64,000 nucleotides of DNA from contig OZ038469.1 in assembly GCA_964036295.1 (NCBI GenBank), positions 14,503,591-14,567,590 of the forward strand. The letters are read 5' to 3'. This DNA is from Plumapathes pennacea (lineage: Eukaryota; Cnidaria; Anthozoa; Antipatharia; Myriopathidae). A program made the position numbers and the translations under genes. Shown here one piece after another: positions 24,441-58,277 of the stretch (position 1 is the first letter of the stretch; each line of letters opens with the position of its first letter). The notes under the pieces were generated by a model. That model had not been told where the DNA came from. It saw only the letters and a program-made list of their open reading frames with translations, and did no database searches.

Positions 24441-25482
24441 TGGTGGTGAAGGCTCTAAGCGTTGATCAAAGGTTGCACCCAAACAAAACCCGAACTTGTG
24501 TCCTTTTGATTACAACAAATTTGCAGTTTTATAGTCCCTTCAAAGCTGCTCAAACTACTCATTTTCATTGAGAGCTAGAATTCCCCCTGCTGGTTACTAC
24601 AAATCAGTCAGTCTTGAGTTTGACTGCAAAGAAAAATTTTGTGCAGAAAAATGTGGATCACTAGATCTGGCGCCAACATCACTCGTCTGAAGGTCACAAG
24701 GGCATTCGGCGCCGACGACACGTTGTCAACTAATATGCGTTTTCAGCTAAATTGAACAAATGTGTGCGGTGTAAGTCGTCGGCCTGTTCTGTGAGTTCCG
24801 TATGTCCGTATGAGGGAGAACTACGATAAAGCTGCAGGTAAATCCCGCTGTGTCCAGTACATCGTCGGCAGTCCTCGATAAACAAGTCCGAACGAGTGGT
24901 TACCGGCCATAAGACAAAACTTTTCCAGTCCCGAGGTCATGTTTTCAGCTATTTTTTAGAACTAATGGAAGTACAAAACAAGTACTGCCAAGAGAATGTA
25001 CTTAGGAACAGATTTCATTTGAATGGTCGCACTTGTGTTCTATAAACTGAGAAATCTGTCGTTTTGAAAGACACTGAAAAACCTTTTCACCATGTCATAT
25101 AAACTTGTCAGTTCGTTCGCAAAAACACAAGTGTGGCCATTCAAACAAGTGTGGCCATTCAAATGAAGTTTTTCATGAGTGCATCTTCGTGGCACTATTT
25201 GCTTTGCGATTCAGCCCTTCAGTTAACTAAAGTTTTAGTCTGAGAACTCAAAGCTGGTTAACTGACCTGCAGCTACTGATTGGCTCATAATGGTCACATG
25301 GTCAGTCTTAAAGTGCAAGTGACACGGTTTTTCTGATTTTTTTTGTTCATTTTGTTACGTGTTGAATACCGTAATAAGAGTTGTTCTGCAAATCTATTTG
25401 AGCCGAAAGCTAATTCTCGCGGCGAAAATTTAGCGTAAATCATCAACAGCAGGGCGCGTGCCTTCTGGCACGCCGGAATCGT

Positions 25483-25501
25483 GTGACGTCACATCCAGAA
25501 C
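25483..25501 (+). promoter_or_regulatory. Mirrored CRE-type promoter block, left
   Basis: GTGACGTCACATCCAGAAC contains the palindromic CREB/ATF site TGACGTCA at 25484-25491. It lies 15 bp upstream of the ATG at 25517 and is exactly repeated in reverse complement at 26841-26859, so it forms a subterminal inverted repeat of the transposon. A hairpin GGCGTGCC-type inverted repeat (about 25455-25473) lies just before it. Confidence 0.75.
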
Positions 25502-25516
25502 AACACTCAAACCAAG

Positions 25517-26132
25517 ATGGCGGACGATAGGCAAGGAAGCGACTCGGGATCTGATTATGCGTCCGACGATTCGTCTTCATCGAGCAGCGAATCTTCGAGT
25601 GAAGAGGGAATTAATCCGGCTCAAATTCAACCGTACAGTTTCGAGCCAAGATTCGAAGTGGAAGAGCTGGGGGAAGAAGAAGACGAAGAAATGCCCGATG
25701 TTGAAGAGAGGCCACGACGCATAAACAATCTTGACTGGTACGATCATCCATTTCTTCATTTACATTCATTTGGTCGTAATAAACATATATTATAAAACTG
25801 CTTTGCTGTTCGTGTATTGTTTCGTTGTGAAGGTGCGTGTTTGAAGGAATCATTTTCAAGTAGCTGTTCTCATCTATCTTATGACCGAGCTTGCAAAATG
25901 TGATCAGGCTTTTTGTGTTTTCTGCAAAAGGTGCTCTTGTGACAACTGCCAGATAATGGATCGAGAGGAAGAATGCATATGCTGCAAGGAATGTGAAGGA
26001 ACGGTTGCGAAATTACAAGAGAATATTTCGATTTTAAATAATGAAACTCCATTCGAGTGTATAAGTATTCACAGAGGGTTTCAGTCCGTTTGCCTTGACC
26101 CTTGGGTTTTGCAGGTTGCATGTATCTCCTGA
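25517..26132 (+). CDS. P2X7 ballast-domain-like protein, truncated
   Basis: Exon 1 (25517-25737) encodes an acidic, Ser-rich leader (SDYASDDSSSSSSESSSEEG) followed by IQPYSFEPRFEVEELG. A GT-AG intron (phase 2) joins it to exon 2 at 25931, creating the run NLDWCSCDNC. Exon 2 continues EEECICCKECEG and GFQSVCLDPWVLQ. This Cys pattern matches the zinc-binding C-terminal 'ballast' region of vertebrate P2X7, which is also known as a free-standing family in invertebrates. After VLQ (26114) the frame stops at 26132. The CAG/GTTGCA junction could be a donor, but no exon with the second half of the domain was recognised downstream. The product has no ion-channel part. It is most likely a transposon-borne gene, probably incomplete. 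Confidence 0.72.
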
Positions 26133-26419
26133 AAAAGTCTGGCATTTTCCCTTTTGATAAAAGCCGACCTCGACCTGCGAGGAGTTTGAAAATCCCCCTG
26201 TTCCACAGATGGGGACTCAGTGGAAATTACGATATGAATTGTTGGCAAGGCATTTTTCTTGTCCAACAAAAGTCTGAAATTACAAATGGCTAAAATTTGA
26301 CTTCTGGTCGCCCGATTCGAATCATGTCGCTAAAAAGTAAAAAACACACAGAAAGAAACGAATGGAACATTTACAAAATTATTTATTAGGTACCGAAAAG
26401 CAAACGACTTTCAGATAGC

Positions 26420-26770
26420 TTACAGGCGAAAGCACTGTTCGACGCGTCTGAGTACACTCAATTTGACGACTACGAACTTGCCGCATACATCGAAAAAAAA
26501 AAAATAACATCGAGATTCGTGCCTACAAGCCAACGGTAAATTGATTTTTACGGACCTTTTTGACAAACCAGCTCTGTATTGTCCAGTATTCAGGAAACAC
26601 TCGTCCCTAAAATGCTTACTGCACAATACGGATCGAGCGCTCGGTGTCCATTTATCTCTCTTCGTTTTCACAAAGTTCGTCCACAGCCGCGCTACGGAAG
26701 CATCCTTTGGCCACTCATACAACTGCTTATCCTTGTGATCACACCCTGCGGCAACACAGCGGCTCGGCAT
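26420..26770 (-). CDS. THAP-type zinc-finger protein of the transposon
   Basis: From the ATG at 26770 the product (116 residues) begins MPSRCVAAGC and continues with W in LYEWPKD, LWTNFV, DKWTPSARSV and LCSKHF. This gives the C2CH order Cys-x4-Cys ... Cys-x2-His of a THAP DNA-binding domain, about 80 residues long. The last 35 residues (after KRSVKINL) look like read-through of non-coding sequence, so a splice site or a broken 3' part is possible. An upstream in-frame ATG at 26896 is less likely because the THAP Met normally starts the protein. It converges on the ballast-like gene. THAP fingers bind DNA and are found in transposases of several families. Confidence 0.8.
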   Translation of the reverse strand: MPSRCVAAGCDHKDKQLYEWPKDASVARLWTNFVKTKRDKWTPSARSVLCSKHFRDECFLNTGQYRAGLSKRSVKINLPLACRHESRCYFFFFDVCGKFVVVKLSVLRRVEQCFRL

Positions 26771-26840
26771 TTTGATAAACGAGGAAAAAATTGCGTAAAC
26801 AAAGGTATGAACACTTCGCTTTAACACAGTTATGGAATGG

Positions 26841-26859
26841 GTTCTGGATGTGACGTCAC
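26841..26859 (-). promoter_or_regulatory. Mirrored CRE-type promoter block, right
   Basis: This is the exact reverse complement of 25483-25501, with TGACGTCA at 26851-26858. It lies about 70 bp upstream of the THAP start codon on the minus strand, so each gene of the element has the same putative CREB/ATF site. Confidence 0.75.
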
Positions 26860-27044
26860 GCCTCGTTTTCATGCCGCGCGCGAGAATCAAAAACAATGCC
26901 GAAAAACTGAAACTTCGCCGGCCTGTAACTTTCAGAAGGAAAGAGGTATTTTCATTCTGTTTTTTTCCTCTAAATCAGTATGGCACAAACAATTCGAAAA
27001 TGACCTACCAAAATCAATCCAAAACCGTGTCACTTGCACTTTAA

Positions 27045-29067
27045 GGGAGCCACTCGACGCAAGCTTCGCTTTTTCCCTCGCATGTCATTACGAAACGTAC
27101 TAAACACAAATGTATGTTGGAGACTAAGCGCTCGCTCTCGGCCAGCAACTGCCATACAGTTGTCTTATATTGCAACCTTTGGTTTTGAAACTTGGAAATT
27201 TGACAACTTTTAATGTGCTTTAATTATACGGCAGCTGAAGAATTATCAGCTGTTATCTTCCCCGATGACACTTTTATGTTACACACGGCGAAATGACGCA
27301 CGGCTCGTGTGGGCTGGCTTTCATTATCTGTCGCCACATTGTAGGATTAATCAGTTGGGATAAGTTACATTATTGTCAGTGAGTTTGAATAAAATAATTA
27401 CAGTTTGTAACCTTTTTGCAGCGAGAGTTCACGTGGGTGCTTTTAATGGCCTAAAAATAGATTGAGCGAAATGTATTTGGTGGCGCTTCAAGTTCGAGGA
27501 TCTGTATGGGAAAATGCTACTGGATACTAGCCTTGCTATCCAGTCATCCATGCAATCTCTATTTGGCAAATTTGTCTGAGCAAATTAGAAAAAAAAAAAA
27601 AAAAAAAAAAAAAAAGCATTATACAACTTGTGTTTGTAAATCGCTAAAATACTGTCTAACTATATACCTGTACATTGCATGGTTATTAATTTCGACCAGT
27701 ATTTGAGGTAATTTTATAGTATAATCTCCCGAACCACCCGAAGCAACACCTCGCCCAAGGATTTTACTCACGACCCTTAAATTGCCATAGAAACACGCAC
27801 ACACGTATCGCATCCTCTACTCCGCCTCTTTTTTCTTGCCAGTTATGTTCATTTGTTATTCTATACTGTTTCTCTTCCTCTAGCAGCTTTTCTTTAAACT
27901 TTTTTTTCTAGCTAATACTCAACGATATTTCATCAATTATATTTTGTGATTTTCTACTAAACGAAATGTCAACAACACTGACAAGGAAAACATAGATTAT
28001 TTACCTTTTAATTTTTAAAACCGCTCTCGAATATCAGTTTTACATCAATTATCATGCAGTTGCCAGCCATGTGAAAATCACATTAGGTTGGACAACTGAA
28101 AACAACTAAAAGTCAAGAAATGCACCTAAGTCATGCTTGGGATGGGCAGTGCCGTTCAGTTCAACTTAGAGATGCGACGATGACGCGGATAGACACCTGA
28201 TACTAGGAAGATTGTACAATTCACTTTGTAAAGATTATATCTCCATTTGTCGGAAGAGAACCAAATCAAGAAATGGTTTTAAATATAGAGGCTTAGAAAC
28301 TGAAATCACGTCACACGAAACATTTACTTTCAAAGACACAATATCCGCCCGAAAAACACCTGCTGGCTCGGTGTTCATCCTATTATCACTAAACGTATGG
28401 AAATCAAACGTCATTAGGTATTAGGTTTTAACAAACATTGATAGCAATATTACTTGCTGAAAAGAAAGCGAATAATAACAATAATTCATTCCCAAATGTC
28501 GGTACATAACGAGGCGATTCTTTCCGGTTAAAAAAGAAGATAACAGATTTAATTTCCTCTTGTTTTCCTTTTGGCACTGAGAATGTTTTGTTGACTCGGG
28601 ACAACACAATGGATAGTAAATAAAGGCTAATGTCATTTTTGTTATCGCGACAGGTTGTGGCTTTCCGCGAGGAGCACTTATAACCATTTGGTTTGTGACA
28701 CTCTAAAGTCGTACGCTTGGGTAAATGAACACAAAGAAGCTGTTCTTTTCGAATGGGAAAGCCGACTCTGCGTTAGACAAACCAGCCCAAAGTAACCCCA
28801 ACGTTTTCAAGAGCAAGAGGCCAAAGAAGGTTTAAGATATTGAAAATAAGACGCCGCTTTTTTGTTGGACTACCAGGAAAAGAAGAAGTAAAATTCATCC
28901 ACGGTGGTTTACATCTATTGGAGAGACTGAGAAAGCTTGAAAAAGCAAGGATTGTGACTTTTCTGCTGAGGACAAGAAACGAGCTCAAATCGGTCTCTCA
29001 AAAGAGACGTTAAACTGACGTCTCCATCAAGCATAAAGAACGTTTGTTGATTGTTCATGGCAAAGAT
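27045..29067. other. Intergenic spacer with poly-A run
   Basis: No gene was recognised. A run of 27 A lies at 27589-27615. Short open frames show no family motif. The last few hundred bases are the presumed leader of the second receptor. Confidence 0.5.
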
Positions 29068-57033: not shown

Positions 57034-58277
57034 TTAGTCCCTTAGAAAGGAGAAAGTGGAGCCTGTAGGTGAACTAAAAGGAAATCTCGGGAGCGCAGTG
57101 AAGGCGGAAGGCGATTCAAACTCTCCAGCTCGACTTTTGAAGACGACATCCGGAGAGAAATGCGGTGACGAGTTCATTGTGGGCCAATATTGCTCGGGCG
57201 CAAGTGGATAAATCCGTGGCGTGGTGGCGAAAGAAGTGCAGGGACTTTGATAAAAACCCATCCTTGGTAAATGAGTCGGGAGCGCGAGGTCGTGGTGATT
57301 TAAACCTGGCTCCCCTAAACATCTGCTTCCTGGCAGCCCAGCCGTTTGAGTTCCGTACGGACTCACTAGAGAAGCGAAGGATGACGCACGGGGTATTTCA
57401 GAGAAACTACTGCACGCAAGCGGCCGAGGTGCCGCTGAAAATAGCGACGAACCGTGGGGCCAATGACCATATAACCCAGTAGAGTTCTCATAATGGAGGG
57501 CGCCCGGGACTGGCGAAATTCTCTGGGGTCTTTTCAGGGTCATGCGGTTTCTCGGTGACTGAGGGTTGCGGCGCTTTAGTTTTCCTGTCGTTCCTCCGAT
57601 GACCACATCGTCGGCGCTCGGATCAAGCATCCAGTAATTGCCCTTTCCCGGGTCGTCGTATTGCCGAGGAATCTTCACAAAGCACTTGTTGAGAGAGAGG
57701 TTGTGTCGGATAGAGTTCTGCCAGCCTTGTTTGTTGTTTCGATAATAAGGAAAGTTCTGGAAAGAACAGATAATATGCCCGTTAGACATATACACAAAAC
57801 CTTTTTGATATCATAAGCTCGCTGTTAGTGCACGTTTATTTAACACCTCTCAGAAAAGTTACTTAATCCGACTCACAACCAGCTTAATACTGACTAGTAA
57901 AGTGGCGTCCATTAGAGTGTTTGTTGAACCGACTTGAAATGGAATCTAATTTAGGCTAATGTTCAAAATTGTACAAGGACGTCACTTGCCTTCATGATGA
58001 AGTCATAGATTCCGCTGAGAGTGAGTCTCTTCTCTGGTGAGCCTCGAATTGCCATCATGATCAAAGCGTTATACGAGAAGGGAGGCTTGTCACACTTTTT
58101 GCTTTCTTCTCCATCGTCTGTACTCTTTGTTTTGCCGTTTTCTTTGCTAATTTTTGCTTGAGGACCAGACTGATCGTGATCATCTCGCGTATCCCTCTCA
58201 TCAGGGAGATCACTGCGCGCTCGATTCGTCAGTTCGTTCGTTGCATGCGGAGGCATGTTTGCTGTCTCTTCTTTCAT
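57034..58277 (-). CDS. FoxG: Forkhead transcription factor FoxG
   Basis: Two exons on the minus strand are inferred, 58277-57990 and 57756-57034, joined in phase 0, giving 336 residues. The forkhead domain runs from KPPFSYNAL (64) to about 159, with recognition helix [15 protein letters not shown] (108-122) and wing [14 protein letters not shown]. The following [15 protein letters not shown] is diagnostic of FoxG (vertebrate FoxG1/BF-1, insect slp). The N-terminus is acidic and charged. The C-terminus is rich in Pro, Ser and aromatic residues, as in other FoxG proteins. The donor after IMK reads AAG/GCAAGT, a GC-AG intron, and the acceptor is TTCTTTCCAG. This 233-bp intron splits the forkhead domain. 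The start context ACCATGA is good. Predicted role: a nuclear repressor patterning neural or ectodermal territories, by analogy only. Confidence 0.95.

Follow-up and report, generated by a model that had tools for sequence, protein, structure and literature searches.

The window, i.e. the whole stretch of 64,000 nt of Plumapathes pennacea DNA that was analysed, contains an element of 1,737 bp with AG...CT termini and TTAA immediately outside each end (Table 1). A repeat search returned a perfect inverted pair of 25 nt (25307-25331 versus 27021-27045), which confirmed the TTAA-bounded element with exact inverted ends described in an earlier sequence-only reading, where merely 16 bp of the repeat had been quoted. 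Between the ends, the start of a gene of the P2X7 ballast type (KolX) faces a THAP-domain exon on the opposite strand, and each of them is preceded by the same block of 19 bp in mirror image.

Table 1. Features of the element, in positions of the window.
Feature	Position	Strand	Remarks
TTAA target-site copy, left	25308..25311	.	
Left terminal inverted repeat, AG terminus	25312..25331	+	20 bp identical to right end
Left mirrored block, CRE TGACGTCA (25484-25491) plus CATCCAGAAC	25483..25501	+	Proposed KolX promoter module
KolX exon 1, Ser/acid-rich N-terminus, YSFEP motif	25517..25737	+	Donor GT at 25738; splice sites by eye
KolX exon 2, seven-cysteine segment	25931..26132	+	Ends at deletion junction; short foreign tail closes frame
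Internal deletion junction	26113..26122	.	~2.1 kb missing relative to L009; short shared sequence at breakpoints
THAP-domain first exon of transposase gene	26423..26770	-	PF05485, E 1.2e-9; DDE core deleted here
Right mirrored block, same 19 bp inverted, TGACGTCA at 26851	26841..26859	-	Proposed transposase-gene promoter module
Right terminal inverted repeat, CT terminus	27021..27040	-	
TTAA target-site copy, right	27041..27044	.	

The surroundings are rich in other coding sequences. Seven long single-exon frames resembling rhodopsin-type GPCRs lie on both strands between 20538 and 46577, and the transposon sits between two of them; the two frames that were scanned matched PF00001 (E 2.5e-37 and 2e-41). 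An exon of a forkhead-domain gene was found at 57037-57810 on the minus strand (PF00250, E 3.2e-22).

Gene content and placement of the element

When the 290-Mb genome (24 contigs) was searched with the window element, matches were obtained at ~10 other places, in 22 matched pieces. Paired ends with an outer TTAA were present at four of those places, namely the loci L009, L010, L011 and L012, all of which are flanked by TTAA on both sides like the window copy. Thus the terminal repeats do recur elsewhere as paired ends, and the first of the two outcomes that the sequence-only reading had named as fatal to it did not occur.

The copy at L009 is 3,833 bp long. Positions 1-815 of the window copy match its start and positions 806-1737 match its end, which indicates that ~2.1 kb was lost internally from the copy in the window. 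The convergent genes of L009 are more complete, with a ballast gene (P2RX7_C) on one side versus a THAP exon and a DDE transposase on the other, so that ballast, THAP and DDE, which had been suggested as the contents to look for in full-length copies, were all found in a single one. The claim of two convergent genes in the window held for their orientation, but neither gene is complete there and the ballast gene has an intron; the internal deletion and the absent transposase core had been overlooked. Such a copy could be mobilised solely in trans. At L011 (1221-2180), a 319-aa open frame inside the transposon copy looks like the end of a retroelement (GIY-YIG-like by eye), apparently as a nested insertion.

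The N-terminus encoded by KolX exon 1 resembles those of the homologs P0007, P0023 and P0025, and the intron that follows has its acceptor at 25930 by eye. The second exon keeps seven cysteines, in CSCDNC and then CICCKEC. No Pfam family was found at E ≤ 1 for the window piece alone. In L009, the same exon runs on into P2RX7_C (PF20478, E 3.2e-13, over the cut-off), and the L009 gene matches P2X7 structures in the PDB (E 5e-4); the ballast identity of the window exon was deduced from these two matches. The ballast-like start that had been recognised by eye was thereby supported, although the window piece is truncated mid-domain, so that a second gene with similarity to the P2X7 ballast is found in L009 and its first part only in the window.

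The THAP finger was borne out by a PF05485 match on the minus strand of the window. On the minus strand of L009, the THAP exon (PF05485) is accompanied by a 451-aa frame and two linker frames. The 451-aa frame had 360 relatives at E ≤ 0.001, and among the 120 of them that were listed, P0101, P0108 and others have THAP and DDE in the same protein. A THAP domain at the transposase N-terminus, as expected of Kolobok, is predicted from the exon in the window and in L009, and is present within one protein in the homologs. An alignment of 13 sequences showed D110, D177, D198-x-W-H201, H258, H263, C273, H275 and E325 to be invariant. By our assignment, the frame probably encodes a DDE transposase with DxxH between the second D and the E, and H258, H263, C273 and H275 may correspond to the published H2CH zinc finger between D and E. 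Pfam gave a weak match to the frame (PF20700, E 1.8e-4), below the cut-off.

The TTAA targets, the AG...CT termini, the THAP exon and the L009 frame with DxxH support the earlier view that the element is a Kolobok-type transposon. THAP, DDE and H2CH are the usual motifs of this group (PMC6004289). Kojima and Bao (2022, PMC9587614) described the Kol0 lineage of Kolobok with TTAA targets, 5'-RR...YY-3' termini, a DDE transposase and KolX, which resembles the C-terminal ballast of P2X7; cnidarians are among its hosts. They proposed that P2X7 arose from a P2X4-like gene fused with KolX, so that KolX would be the source of the P2X7 tail. The linkage of a ballast domain to such a transposon, which the sequence-only reading took to be a new arrangement, was therefore already in print in 2022, and that claimed discovery is corrected here.

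By its KolX gene, ends and motifs, which were set against the published description of the lineage, the window family resembles Kol0 elements with transposase and KolX (the Kolobok-1_XT type, PMC9587614) in TTAA, RR..YY (AG...CT in the window copy), DDE with DxxH and the ballast-type KolX, whereas the window copy is without the DDE core and half of KolX. Taken as a whole, the data are best explained, with good confidence, by a Kol0-type Kolobok DNA transposon copy that has lost an internal part and is non-autonomous. Xenopus Kolobok (XKol) likewise has AG termini, TTAA and a transposase with THAP, DDE and H2CH, but KolX and P2X7 are absent from the main text describing it, in which ten full-length elements are 6.8-13.9 kb long (PMC6004289). 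Rump and colleagues (2020, PMC7016195) found the ballast domain in cnidarians and a sponge, and mentioned a tick protein that pairs it with a domain printed as 'TAHP'; the string 'transpos' does not occur in the main text of that paper.

Two other assignments were tried and rejected. For KolobokP, the direct repeats within 24800-27600 were of only 14-20 nt, not long terminal ones, and the five L009 frames scanned with Pfam gave no match to a His-Me nuclease. For piggyBac, the termini differ from AG...CT, and the same five frames gave no piggyBac match.

Ballast genes and transposases across the genome

The PF20478 profile matched the genome at 36 positions, and 30 loci were cut out. A convergent transposase or THAP match was present within ~1.5 kb at 25 of the 30 ballast loci, the exceptions being L019, L020, L021, L034 and L040. 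The locus L034 lies between inverted repeats flanked by TTAA and is possibly a further deletion derivative. Judged by coordinates only, a partner lies within 9 kb of at least 28 of the 36 matches; the number becomes 26 if two pieces at L020, whose DDE match is 5.9-6.0 kb away, are set aside. This count drew on 30 of the 151 THAP and 78 of the 118 transposase matches, hand-chosen as strong or near ballast. Four of the eight matches that are partnerless by coordinates have a partner by tblastn.

These counts bear on the proposal that the ballast family spreads as transposon cargo. The association itself was upheld by the 25 of 30 loci beside a convergent transposase or THAP match, but a recent acquisition from the host was contradicted. 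That the ballast gene was picked up recently from the host by one transposon copy is extremely improbable: the domain does occur in host P2X7 proteins, but KolX adjoins a transposase in many diverged families of this genome and has been described as a regular component of Kol0 (PMC9587614), and we rejected host cargo in favour of a standing KolX. Ballast and THAP frames without window-type ends, which had been listed as evidence against the reading, do exist between the terminal repeats of families F3 and F4; those families have the same plan with other ends.

The cysteine-rich fold of KolX is homologous to the ballast domain of the P2X7 receptor and to fish Nanor. To our knowledge, P2X7 and Nanor are host genes and do not lie within transposon ends. 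Named relatives of the window-family KolX and transposase came from a crinoid, corals and an anemone among other animals, and no KolX relative was confirmed in viral and prokaryote contigs. The window-family KolX (L011 exon) is closer to that of the crinoid Antedon (60%) than to those of Montipora or Exaiptasia (55%), although for some other families of this genome the match to Montipora KolX reaches 73-75%. This pattern could reflect old subfamilies or horizontal transfer.

Some loci departed from the common arrangement. The strong P2RX7_C loci L019-L021 form a separate ballast subgroup by eye (with WCVCG.CR.M and TCVTSY, for instance, in L019 and L020), and no Kolobok transposase was present in the cut stretches; close to L020 there is, by eye, a small CXC-like frame rich in Cys, and a DDE match lies ~6 kb off. 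Either host genes or a mobile element of another kind may be represented here. At C3:6426521-6430998 (L030, L032), two ballast loci are arranged divergently ~0.9 kb apart, each with its own convergent transposase match.

The mirrored CRE block

It was confirmed that the 19-bp block before the two genes of the window element is an exact inverted pair. Exact TGACGTCA was found upstream of the domain in 18 of the 30 ballast loci, and the runner-up among 256 palindromic 8-mers in 6 of 30; most of the 12 loci without it lack a recognisable first exon. Where a first exon could be recognised, by one motif (14 of 30 loci), exact TGACGTCA stood shortly upstream in 13 of 14, and the exception, L033, carries TGATGTCA. 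In 12 of these 13 loci an in-frame ATG follows 13-81 bp downstream, and the frame of L038 has no ATG. On the THAP side, upstream stretches of at least 100 bp were counted, and TGACGTCA was present within 250 bp in 16 of 27, at 54-113 bp before the THAP match, and absent in 11; the next palindrome reached 2. Three of 30 stretches were dropped as shorter, of which C11_10277426 does have the site. The lineages L082, L086, L087, L088 and L089 are without it on this side, and the right site of family F2, ~860 bp from the THAP match, is absent from this count and was used in the mirror comparison below.

Among 16 representatives, hand-picked from the 30 loci after an earlier result had been seen and including the transposase-less L019, L020 and L021 as well as L048 (CRE ~1 kb before the ballast match), TGACGTCA occurred in 11, and 200 shuffles gave a mean of 0.28 and a maximum of 2. 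The genome as a whole holds 22,300 copies in 290 Mb, 2.8 times the reversed control, from which TGACGTCA may be an ordinary host promoter word; the transcription under cAMP or stress signalling that the sequence-only reading suggested is a conjecture. It is common here, yet too rare to account by chance for the counts on the KolX and THAP sides, all of which come from the related copies of one genome.

The module was then compared between the two ends of nine families with exact sites at both, one pair each, the F6 ends being taken from two close copies. The 10 bp on the gene-ward side of TGACGTCA were alike left and right at 82 of 90 positions. The figure was 40 of 90 for the 10 bp outward and 34 of 90 for gene-ward positions 11-20. 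Left and right ends from different families agreed on average at 4.6 of 10 positions (highest 9 of 10), and when right ends were permuted among families, 0 of 10,000 permutations reached the agreement observed within families; the families are not fully independent, as some sequence surrounding the block is common to F4 and F10. The mirrored module thus recurs in nine families, in answer to the comparison of promoter blocks among copies that had been proposed. Because the gene-ward match stops after 10 bp, the unit is taken to be ~18 bp, a constant CRE with a family-variable neighbour.

How far the two ends resemble each other beyond the unit varied among families. In F10, in a comparison of eight loci from six families, the 30 bp on the outward side show few differences as well. 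In F4, ~200 bp are almost the same at both ends, and the likeness stops at the inner end of the CRE unit. In F1, the window family, and in F3, the two ends are alike in their outer 25 bp and in the unit, whereas the part in between scores 7-19 of 25 per bin. The distance between unit and transposon end is 164-198 bp at either end of F1, F3 and F4 and at the left end of F5. In a search for short copies with the F5 and F4 ends, two F4-end matches, covering query positions 3-98 and 3-54 of 309, ended short of the block; they may be small mobile copies or eroded fragments. Most simply, the ancestor would have had terminal repeats of ~200 bp with a promoter as their inner edge, and selection would have kept this edge after the middle diverged.

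The CRE palindromes are most improbably products of chance or functionless relics of a recent duplication. Copies within a family do share descent, as such relics would; the shuffles stayed at or below 2 against the 11 of 16 observed, and the block is without a mismatch in F1 and F3 although the middle of the ends has decayed. A chance pair was rejected by the shuffles, the THAP-side counts and the permutations, and mirrored CRE blocks beyond chance, as the sequence-only reading had it, were upheld.

Possible functions of the CRE module

As relatives in this genome show, a complete element runs from TTAA and a terminal inverted repeat through a CRE block and the inward KolX to the convergent DDE transposase gene with its THAP first exon, and on through the second CRE block and terminal inverted repeat to TTAA. 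The transposase would cut at TTAA and KolX would act as an accessory protein. We infer that the CRE module is the proximal promoter of both genes, that the constant TGACGTCA would be recognised by a bZIP protein of the host (CREB/ATF-type), and that the adjoining 10 bp would be kept alike at both ends as one protein, probably encoded by the element, must read both.

Elements of the Mutator type offer a parallel. MuDR of maize has two convergent genes, for a transposase and an accessory protein, and makes a 9-bp target duplication; it belongs to a different superfamily in a plant host and its accessory gene is unrelated. Its long terminal repeats hold promoters together with transposase sites (PMC3310237), as is proposed here for the module. 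In our reading, the CRE block may be a promoter inside the terminal repeat, with which its position fits; the module would have originated as the inner edge of the ~200-bp repeat, and each gene would have its promoter in the adjacent terminal repeat, on the pattern of MuDR.

The mirrored block could instead be a subterminal binding site of the transposase (THAP) or of KolX that pairs the ends, close to the genes only through being close to the ends. The Drosophila P element, to which the mirrored blocks may be compared, has 31-bp terminal repeats and one gene, for a THAP transposase. We know of no KolX and no CRE pair in P elements. A block that is mirrored at a fairly constant distance from both ends, with an extension that co-varies left and right as terminal repeats do, fits a transposition site as well, and P elements carry internal sites near their ends, namely 10-bp transposase sites and 11-bp subterminal inverted repeats (PMC7776569). 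Against this, the 8-bp core is a standard bZIP site common to families with different terminal repeats, and it stands at the short distances given above before the KolX ATG and the THAP match. Both facts are compatible with a transposition site too, and we regard a pure transposition site as somewhat doubtful. Mutated CREs in single copies, on the left TGACTTCA in L010, TGAAGTCA in L011, TGACATCA in the diverged L017 and a deletion in L016, and on the right TGACATCA in L012, cannot separate a promoter from a transposition site, because no change is common to the same end of two copies.

It is also conceivable, if rather unlikely, that the unit is a dual site, with a host bZIP protein driving transcription from the CRE and an element THAP protein binding the adjoining 10 bp and feeding back on its own promoters. 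A constant core with a neighbour matched left and right within families is what a two-protein site would be expected to show, but this is a variant of the two simpler readings.

A more far-reaching reading, which we hold to be less likely than not, is that Kol0 elements carry a directional 18-bp module at the inner edge of an ancestral ~200-bp repeat, which would co-regulate transposase and KolX and also be read by an element-encoded protein, tying transcription and transposition to a host bZIP factor. If P2X7 arose by capture of KolX, a module like this one may have served as promoter of the ancestral KolX. The recurrence of the CRE module supplies a regulatory rule, open to testing, for the proposed donor lineage of the P2X7 tail. 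Should the module be a true promoter, the question opens of which tissue or signal wakes these elements, and the adjoining 10 bp may be a meeting point of transposase and host control.

The pairing of transposon and ballast gene is already known, and the recurring, matched CRE-type sequence before both genes is what we found no description of. The words promoter, cAMP, CREB and THAP and the sequence TGACGTCA are all absent from the main text of PMC9587614. In the literature searched, which lay outside subscription journals and Repbase Reports, no Kolobok transposon with a 'cAMP response element' was found, nor, among the papers listed and judged by titles and the starts of abstracts, any description of Kolobok promoters; what was retrieved on transposons with TGACGTCA and a terminal inverted repeat concerned human PGBD3 and AP-1.

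In several families a second motif, AGCGG, was noticed no more than 25 bp from the CRE on its outward side, before one of the two genes or before both. It was seen on the KolX side at L022, L023, L027, L028, L034, L044 and L046 and in nine THAP-side stretches.
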